A stretch of 46,067 nt of DNA from Arthrobacter sp. H5. Lineage in GTDB: Bacteria; Actinomycetota; Actinomycetes; Actinomycetales; Micrococcaceae. Below the pieces are notes generated by a model. The model was not told the origin of the DNA. It searched no databases and saw only the letters and a list, made by a program, of their open reading frames with translations. Location: contig NZ_KI914989.1 in assembly GCF_000520595.1 (NCBI RefSeq), forward strand, positions 225,312 through 271,378. Reading direction: 5' to 3'. The position numbers were made by a program, and so were the translations under genes. Below, in pieces: positions 43,992 to 45,863 of the stretch (the stretch's first letter is position 1; each line of letters opens with the position of its first letter).

Positions 43992-45005
43992 GTGCTTATT
44001 GCACAGCGCCCCACCCTGACCGAAGAAGTAGTAGCCGATAACCGGTCACGGTTTGTCATTGAACCGCTGGAGCCCGGTTTCGGCTACACACTCGGAAACT
44101 CACTTCGCCGCACCCTGCTGTCCTCGATTCCCGGAGCCGCTGTCACCAGCATCCGCATCGACGGCGTGCTGCACGAGTTCACCACGGTTCCAGGTGTCAA
44201 GGAAGATGTCACCGAGATCATCCTGAACATCAAGAACCTTGCGGTCTCCTCCGAGCATGACGAGCCAGTGGTTGCCTACCTGCGCAAGCAGGGACCCGGC
44301 GTCGTCACCGCTGCGGACATCGCACCGCCGGCCGGTGTGGAATTCCACAACCCGGACCTGCACATTGCCACGCTGAACTCGAAGGGCAAGTTCGAGCTTG
44401 AACTGACCATCGAGCGCGGCCGCGGCTACGTTTCGGCTTCACAGAACAAGTCAGGCGACTCGGAGATCGGCCGTATTCCGGTTGACTCCATTTACTCGCC
44501 TGTTCTGAAGGTGACCTTCCGCGTGGAAGCCACCCGTGTTGAACAGCGCACCGACTTTGACCGCCTGATTGTCGACGTCGAAACCAAGGACGCCATTGCA
44601 CCGCGCGACGCCGTCGCCTCAGCAGGCACCACCCTGGTGGAGCTGTTTGGGCTGGCCCGCGAACTCAACACCGCAGCCGAGGGTATTGAGATTGGCCCGT
44701 CGCCAACCGACGCCGCTCTTGCGGCTGACATGGCACTGCCCATTGAAGACCTTGAGCTGACCGTGCGGTCCTACAACTGCCTCAAGCGCGAGGGCATCCA
44801 CACAGTGGGTGAGCTCGTTGCACGTTCCGAGGCTGACCTGATGGACATCCGTAACTTCGGTGCCAAGTCCATCGACGAGGTCAAGGCCAAGCTGGTGGAA
44901 CTCGGGTTGTCCCTCAAGGATTCCCCTCCAGGGTTTGACCTTGCAGCCCGCGCCGCAGCCATCGAAGAGGACGACGACGCCGCCTACGGCGACGAAGAGC
45001 TCTAA
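43992..45005 (+). CDS. rpoA: DNA-directed RNA polymerase subunit alpha
   Basis: 337 residues. The N-terminal assembly domain has '[20 protein letters not shown]', '[20 protein letters not shown]' and '[17 protein letters not shown]'; the C-terminal domain that contacts UP elements and activators begins near 250 with '[20 protein letters not shown]' and '[14 protein letters not shown]'. An acidic tail '[13 protein letters not shown]' closes it. The start is GTG 43992 after AAAGGAAA. Confidence 0.98.
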
Positions 45006-45068: not shown

Positions 45069-45863
45069 ATGCCCACACCAACAAAGGGCCCACGTCTCGG
45101 AGGCGGTGCGGCGCACGAGCGCCTGATGCTCGCCAACTTGGCCGCCTCACTGTTTGAGCACAAGCGAATCACCACCACCGTCACCAAGGCTAAGCGGCTC
45201 CGTCCCTACGCCGAGCGGCTGATCACCTTCGCGAAGAAGGGCGATCTGGCATCGCGCCGTCGTGTCCTGGGTGTCATCAGCAGCAAGGGCATTGTCCACG
45301 AGCTGTTCACCGACATTGCCCCTGCTGTGGCAAACCGCAACGGCGGCTACACCCGCATCACCAAGATCGGCAACCGCAAGGGCGACAACGCTCCCATGGC
45401 CGTCATCGAACTGGTGCTGGACGCTGTCTCAGCGAAGCAGGCTGTAGTTGCTGAAGCTGACAAGGCTGCGGAACTGGCTGCTGCAAAGCAGGCCGCAGCA
45501 GCCGCACCAGTGGCATCCGCTGAATCCGCAGACTCACCGGAATCCGCAGACTCACCGGAATCCGCAGACTCCGCTGATTCACCGGAATCGGCTGACTCAG
45601 CAGAGTCCGCTCCTTCCGCGGACGAAGCTGCCACCGAAGATACGGCCAACGCCTTCGAGGGTTCGGTTCCAGCGCGTGAAGACGGCGAAGCCCCTGAGGG
45701 CTACGAGGTCAAGGGCAACGTGAACTCCATGAAGTTCCACGTACCCGGGTCCCACTGGTACAACACCACCGTCGCTGAAGTATGGTTCAAGTCAGCGGAG
45801 GATGCCGCAGCTGCAGGGTTTGTTCCTGCCGGCGGCGAAGATGCGCAGACGGTCGAGTCCTAA
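45069..45863 (+). CDS. rplQ: 50S ribosomal protein L17 with acidic linker and extra C-terminal domain
   Basis: 264 residues, about twice the usual length of roughly 120. Residues 1-120 are L17 ('[20 protein letters not shown]', '[20 protein letters not shown]'). Next comes an Ala-rich then acidic linker with repeated 'ESADSP' units, and residues about 212-258 form a compact extra domain '[20 protein letters not shown]', '[20 protein letters not shown]'. Similar C-terminal segments exist on other actinobacterial ribosomal proteins, and I recall the name sunset domain for this type, unverified. Function unknown. GAGGAG precedes the ATG. Confidence 0.96.
45522..45575 (+). repeat. 18-base tandem repeat inside rplQ linker
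   Basis: GAATCCGCAGACTCACCG occurs at 45522-45539 and 45540-45557 exactly, and a third partial copy starts at 45558. Each unit encodes ESADSP. Further degenerate copies follow. Confidence 0.88.

Follow-up and report, generated by a model that had tools for sequence, protein, structure and literature searches.

Organisation of the L17 gene

The window, i.e. the whole stretch of 46,067 nucleotides analysed here, ends with rpoA, the gene encoding ribosomal protein L17, and the start of one more ORF. The rpoA gene (positions 43992-45005; 651 bits with NF003514, cut-off 434) lies directly before rplQ, an ORF on the forward strand (45069-45863) encoding a 50S ribosomal protein L17 of 264 amino acids. 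The identity of the L17 core is given by matches above the cut-offs of TIGR00059 (124.6 bits) and PF01196 (133.1 bits), and by the place of the gene after rpoA. L17 had a single match in the genome at E ≤ 1e-10.

The encoded protein consists of an L17 core, a linker and a folded C-terminal domain, all on the forward strand. The core comprises residues 1-116 (45069-45416); PF01196 matches residues 20-116 and puts its end at about residue 116, close to the residue 120 estimated in an earlier, sequence-only reading of this DNA. The linker, delimited by the AlphaFold2 model and by composition, covers residues 117-195 (45417-45653) and is rich in Ala, Ser, Asp and Glu, with 29 Ala, 13 Ser, 9 Asp and 9 Glu among its 79 residues and a net charge of -15. 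Within it, a repeat search detected an 18-base tandem repeat encoding ESADSP at 45522-45571, in 2.8 copies with 100% matches, as expected from the earlier description of an Ala/Glu/Ser linker with such repeats. The C-terminal domain, delimited by NF051437, alignment and AlphaFold2, spans residues 196-258 (45654-45842).

Identity and predicted fold of the sunset domain

The C-terminal domain belongs to a family already catalogued by NCBIfam as the sunset domain. The window L17 matches NF051437 (sunset domain) with 73.3 bits (cut-off 27) at residues 214-255 (45708-45833, forward strand), covering all 42 profile positions, and NF051448 (L17, sunset domain variant) with 339.9 bits (cut-off 280) over profile positions 1-229, which is the whole model. 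It is thus a member of both, and the NCBIfam row states no function. NCBIfam also lists sunset domain variants of L4, L20, S2 and ArfC. Similar to the window L17, these carry the domain at the C-terminal end; they differ from it in the host protein, and therefore in the place on the ribosome or membrane. Dedicated sunset variant models for the S16, L22, NusA and NuoC hosts described below were absent among the matches listed. Pfam gave no match to the sunset domain of the window at E ≤ 1, nor again at E ≤ 10.

Structure prediction, which had been proposed earlier as a check, gave a confident fold for the tail. The 68-residue tail alone, modelled with AlphaFold2 together with 57 relatives, reached a mean pLDDT of 88.1 and a pTM of 0.75. 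In the model of the full-length L17, core and tail were confident, a helix was predicted at residues 122-145, and residues 150-189 had a pLDDT below 50. According to these models the folded part would start at about residue 196, so that the compact, separate C-terminal domain of the sequence-only reading stands, and its start at residue 205 is probably placed too late. The conservation noticed at that time was also found: twelve positions (K215, G216, N217, S220, H224, T234, A236, E237, W239, F240, A246 and G250) are invariant in 58 aligned copies, comprising the window and 57 of 78 distinct segments from L17, L4, L20, L22, S2 and S16, which places the block far from chance.

The L17 tail is therefore a new member of a catalogued family. 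Literature searches, judged mostly from result entries, returned no paper on the sunset domain, and a full-text search with the phrase "sunset domain" gave a sole, unrelated match on medical library competencies. Searches on L17/rplQ extensions, ArfC and actinobacterial ribosome structures, likewise judged by result entries, revealed nothing on the domain beyond the Cutibacterium acnes case described below. The earlier statement that the role is not described agrees with these searches, although the sequence family itself was already in NCBIfam.

The sunset domain is also present in a determined ribosome structure. Residues 241-294 of uL4 of C. acnes (PDB 8crx, chain e) match the sunset profile with an E-value of 2.2e-24, and a matching uL4 was found in 8crx and five more C. 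acnes 70S entries. The ribosome paper describes the uL4 extension as solvent exposed and 100 residues longer than that of E. coli, with its density absent and the extension called likely disordered (PMC10085706). By profile match, the end of this extension is a sunset domain, the same as at the end of the window L17 but on L4. A leashed domain would be expected not to show in an averaged map, in line with the absent density.

Host proteins and their distribution

A profile search for host proteins, another of the checks proposed earlier, revealed many hosts across actinobacteria. They include the ribosomal proteins L17, L4, L20, L22, S2 and S16, as well as NusA, NuoC, ArfC, other short membrane proteins, LGFP-repeat proteins, nucleases and secreted proteins. 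Hosts were identified from the ORFs around the hits in the genome contigs; family scans confirmed NusA, S16 (3 loci), L22, S2, L20, ArfC, LGFP and SNase (L020), and the remaining labels were assigned by eye. The NuoC host remained below the cut-off of its subfamily model (98.4 of 122.45 bits). Among the best 80 of at least 566 confirmed loci in named genomes, which stand closest to the query and do not form a census, and of which at least three look like contaminated assemblies, we found 40 L17, 28 L4, 6 L20, 3 S16, 1 L22, 1 S2 and one fragment with no identified host.

The NuoC-like protein (L042:1812-4448, reverse strand) bears a sunset domain (43.6 bits) within an acidic tail of considerable length; its genome (G094) also encodes a sunset domain on L20 (L003). 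A secreted-looking protein (L313:894-1790, forward strand) combines a GmrSD_C-like domain (25.6 bits, cut-off 23) with a sunset copy containing two cysteines.

Among the 197 genomes of Micrococcaceae, 63 bear the sunset domain on L20, 43 on L17 and 12 on L4. These family-wide counts cover L17, L4 and L20; one of the 12 genomes with L4 (probably G404) and one of the 43 with L17 (probably G297, with L124 as its sunset-bearing L17) were named by inference. Altogether 115 of the 197 genomes carry the domain on at least one of these proteins, 112 of them on exactly one and three on two. L17 and L20 never carry it in the same genome (13.8 such genomes would be expected if they were independent), neither do L20 and L4, and L17 and L4 do so in three genomes. 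Counted by genus, the probability of no overlap between L17 (7 genera) and L20 (12 genera) among 31 genera is 0.019, a value uncorrected for kinship. Most carriers in Micrococcaceae thus use one ribosomal host per genome, which is a pattern and not a test, because the genomes are related by descent.

Genomes with two or more hosts outside the family also argue against a strict rule of one. Nocardioides jensenii carries the domain on L4 and S2 (L229 and L256). In genome G110 the domain is present on NusA (L033:1404-2924, forward strand), L4 (L032) and L22 (L007), and a two-cysteine copy is found on a small anchored protein (L036). Janibacter sp. HTCC2649 carries the domain on L4 (L207), and its second host, S16 (L258), is a further exception to the single-host pattern.

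These distributions bear on the role suggested in the sequence-only reading, namely that the domain, owing to the place of L17 near the tunnel exit, could be a tether to nascent chains, the membrane or a binding partner. In favour of this reading, the positions of L17 and L22 are at the exit or close to it. However, S2, S16 and NusA, which are not known as exit proteins, bear the same domain, and in relatives of the window genome it resides on L20 and L4 in the numbers given above. With a domain found at several different sites, a tunnel-exit role is improbable, and a role specific to L17 finds no support in a family in which nearly all carriers use just one of L17, L20 and L4.

In the ArfC- and LGFP-type hosts, a hydrophobic segment is followed by Arg or Lys residues and then by the sunset domain, as seen by eye. 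According to the positive-inside rule, the side of a membrane segment flanked by Arg or Lys faces the cytosol, so the sunset domain of these membrane hosts is probably cytosolic in our reading of their sequences. Sunset domains could bind each other, pairing ribosomes as disomes or in a resting state, or tying ribosomes to membrane proteins with the same domain. Such homotypic contacts would fit the cysteine-free copies that we read as cytosolic tails of membrane proteins, and also the tandem copies that exist in an L17 (L239, two copies by eye) and in two membrane proteins (L294 and L136). Nevertheless, 29 of the 43 L17 carriers of Micrococcaceae show no sunset domain besides the L17 tail at E ≤ 0.001, which would leave contact between ribosomes as the sole homotypic option there, and we consider this explanation unlikely.

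Relationship with the Ada metal-binding domain

Profile comparisons related the sunset domain to the metal-binding domain of Ada through intermediate forms. The ribosomal sunset domain matched a two-cysteine form with 99.5% (E 1.9e-22) and a zinc-type form with 97.5% (E 5.2e-12); the score of the latter match was 57.0, compared with a maximum of 15.1 in 100 column shuffles. The zinc-type form in turn matched the Ada profile, which was built from five of the eight loci read, with 97.8%. Three zinc-type relatives were tried against PF02805 and all passed its cut-off of 23 bits (40.1, 30.0 and 48.1 bits). In distant Actinomycetota (L028, L030 and L044), Ada-type zinc domains stand at protein ends as intermediates between Ada and sunset; by eye, the hosts in L030 and L044 are nuclease-like and that in L028 is membrane-anchored. 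The direct match of sunset and Ada was weak (14.3%, score 20.5; maximum of 16.4 in 100 shuffles).

In structural comparison, the first PDB match of the sunset model in Foldseek was N-Ada (1u8b), with a probability of 0.47, an E-value of 0.86 and a TMq of 0.53, which is not significant alone; the link becomes strong only by way of the intermediate forms. Ranks two to four (DNA ligase IV twice and a lipase) had E-values of 5.6-9.8 and were rejected, and the structure entry 3e0r (E 1.3) was considered a chance match. A VIA comparison with Ada yielded Z scores of 3.8 and 3.1 among 13 chains, where 3.8 can reflect a common arrangement.

The Ada metal-binding domain uses four cysteine ligands. In contrast, cysteine is absent from all 128 distinct ribosomal or NusA sunset sequences and from the domain of the window, which is outside the reach of the Pfam model of Ada. 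Linked to PF02805 by the zinc-type relatives, the sunset domain resembles an Ada-type domain whose metal site has been lost. Retention of an Ada-like function as a sensor of metal or of an alkylating agent appears very improbable: in our reading of the alignment, the invariant His224 corresponds, by way of the zinc-type forms, to the first cysteine in the C-x3-C motif of Ada, but the other three ligand places are occupied by S228, A254 and E257, and the copies on ribosomal proteins and NusA are cysteine-free throughout.

The two-cysteine form shares with sunset a pattern of K-G-N, H-P-G and T, and was found at the C-terminal end of secreted nuclease-like and wall-type proteins of actinobacteria. 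It differs from the domain of the window in its two cysteines, its basic charge and, judged by eye from the N-termini, its mostly exported hosts. Three of its pieces tried against Pfam gave no match. Each of 29 copies, whose hosts seem to be exported, nuclease-like or anchored by the N-terminus, contains two cysteines, and among the remaining non-ribosomal hosts 17 copies are cysteine-free and one has a single cysteine. The mean net charge is -2.45 for L17 (64 sequences), -1.62 for L4 (26) and -2.43 for L20 (30), compared with +2.38 for the 29 two-cysteine copies and -4.53 for the 17 cysteine-free copies on other hosts; these cysteine and charge counts required 40 bits, which excluded the weakest copies. 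There look to be two forms, one mostly outside the cell and one cytosolic, as far as composition and host type indicate.

The domain could also bind nucleic acids and thereby keep ribosomes close to mRNA or DNA, DNA binding being known for the related Ada domain. Besides the link with Ada, the occurrence on an SNase host and on NusA points in this direction. We regard this reading as unlikely, as the ribosomal copies are acidic and it is the two-cysteine copies that are basic.

Gain, loss and selection

In the genus of the window genome, 36 of 38 genomes matched the L17 model, and the window genome was the only one above the cut-off of the sunset variant, with the other 35 of the 36 below it. 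Among 29 genus-mate L17 proteins that were read, none possessed a sunset domain, and in the ten genus mates included in the family sample the domain was not found anywhere in the genome at E ≤ 0.001. Most of these proteins (28 of 29) have 197-225 amino acids and end in KK, and 22 of the 29 contain at least two repeat words like those of the window linker (ESADS, DSVDS, etc.), so that linker repeats of this kind are usual for the genus. No sunset remnant was seen behind the L17 stop in 25 of the 29 downstream translations. Some L17-model matches in genus mates ran through one stop, and in one genome of the genus (L092, genome G502) the usual stop after DEKK is missing and L17 runs to 300 amino acids.

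A tree of the rpoA-side and L17-core DNA with the tail excluded (82 rows) placed the window genome inside its genus, among non-carriers; the grouping of its rpoA side and L17 core inside the genus had SH-aLRT values of 97 and 98. The tree was obtained with a quick method, and six of 88 wanted loci, five of them carriers, were omitted as their L17 start was not found. We rejected the idea that the entire operon had been exchanged for one of another genus, since the core and the rpoA side group inside the genus and the linker resembles those of the genus mates; the tail alone is foreign. A contaminated assembly is unlikely, given the contig of 285 kb and the same grouping of rpoA side and core. 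A phage origin found no support either: viral contigs searched with an alignment of the domain gave 23 pattern matches with no relatives at E ≤ 1e-3, and PHROGs gave weak matches only (best E 0.0018). The nearest copies found, on three L17 proteins, share 34 of 42 residues with the sunset domain of the window.

The carrier label needs nine changes on this tree, at least eight of them by starred branches, and such change counts do not separate gain from loss. For the genus of the window, it is simpler to assume that the window lineage acquired the tail late.

In two other genera with sunset on L17, selection could be estimated from 11 sequences each. Pooled pN/pS was 0.199 for the core, 0.434 for the linker and 0.190 for the sunset domain in one genus, and 0.139, 0.382 and 0.140, respectively, in the other. 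Pooled ratios keep the pairs with dS ≤ 0.02 or saturated, whereas medians exclude them and used 54 (core), 49 (linker) and 46 (sunset) of 55 pairs in one genus and 51, 42 and 44 of 55 in the other. In these genera the sunset domain on L17, unlike the linker, is under a constraint as strong as that of the ribosomal core; the estimates apply to these two genera, as the genus of the window has a single copy.

Absence from close relatives had been taken in the sequence-only reading as a point against a real domain. Such absence was indeed found in the genus, but because the domain is under constraint where testable, it suggests to us a patchy, mobile domain. For the same reason we doubt that the domain is a tolerated mobile tail with no function, spread by recombination. 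The gains or losses forced on the tree and the close relationship of carriers and non-carriers would suit such a tail, while a constraint equal to that of the ribosomal core in two genera would not.

Proposed role of the L17 tail

We propose that the L17 tail is a docking module on a leash and is recognised in trans, and give this reading a probability of roughly 0.45. The disordered acidic leash would hold the sunset module on the ribosome and give it reach, and a cytosolic or membrane-surface partner would recognise the sunset domain itself. The ribosomal site differs among lineages while the domain stays the same, from which we infer that it works in trans. By this recognition the partner might hold the ribosome at a place, or bring a factor to it, and a sunset domain on the cytosolic tail of a membrane protein, on NusA or on NuoC would bring the same partner there. 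Because the genome of the window gave a single L17 match, every ribosome of this organism should bear the handle unless it is cleaved. We are much surer of the anatomy, i.e. the fold and the leash, than of this mechanism.

A wider and more doubtful extension is that these proteins belong to an undescribed ribosome-recruitment system of actinobacteria. There, a leashed domain, mostly one per ribosome, would be read by a conserved partner on any carrier, and lineages would move the handle among L17, L4, L20, L22, S2 and S16, with NusA, complex I and cytosolic membrane tails as further carriers. If the domain does recruit ribosomes or factors, this would be a novel means of positioning translation within the cell.

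Ribosomal proteins are usually taken as fixed parts, and here a constrained domain switches its carrier between genera of one family. Whereas the family was already known from NCBIfam, the several hosts, the patchy gain and loss, the constraint and the link with Ada are new, as is the window genome with a sunset L17 in a genus otherwise devoid of it. Also new is the assignment of the C. acnes uL4 extension, which brings the domain to a skin bacterium where it had been set aside as a disordered tail.

Occurrence beyond the family

In the class (246 genomes), 42 genomes encode a sunset domain at E ≤ 1e-12; most genomes are devoid of it, so that the domain can be dispensed with over evolution. 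In 17 of the 42 genomes the host is a ribosomal protein, L4 in ten (two copies degenerate) and L17 in seven, and none has two ribosomal hosts; host reading required 35 bits here, and the second match of genome G628 (L321), which lies below this value, was left without a host. The degenerate copies, on L4 of genomes G695 (L320) and G679 (L325), do not have the full KGN / H motif and are perhaps being lost. In the phylum (296 genomes), 31 genomes had a sunset match at E ≤ 0.001.

Sunset-bearing L4 or L17 proteins that resemble those of Micrococcaceae by eye were found in L189 (a Sporosarcina record) and in L192 and L216 (Acidobacteria MAG), which are probably contaminated assemblies. Bacillus subtilis, used as a control genome outside the phylum, had a sunset match above the domain cut-off, and the sunset family thus reaches beyond Actinomycetota.
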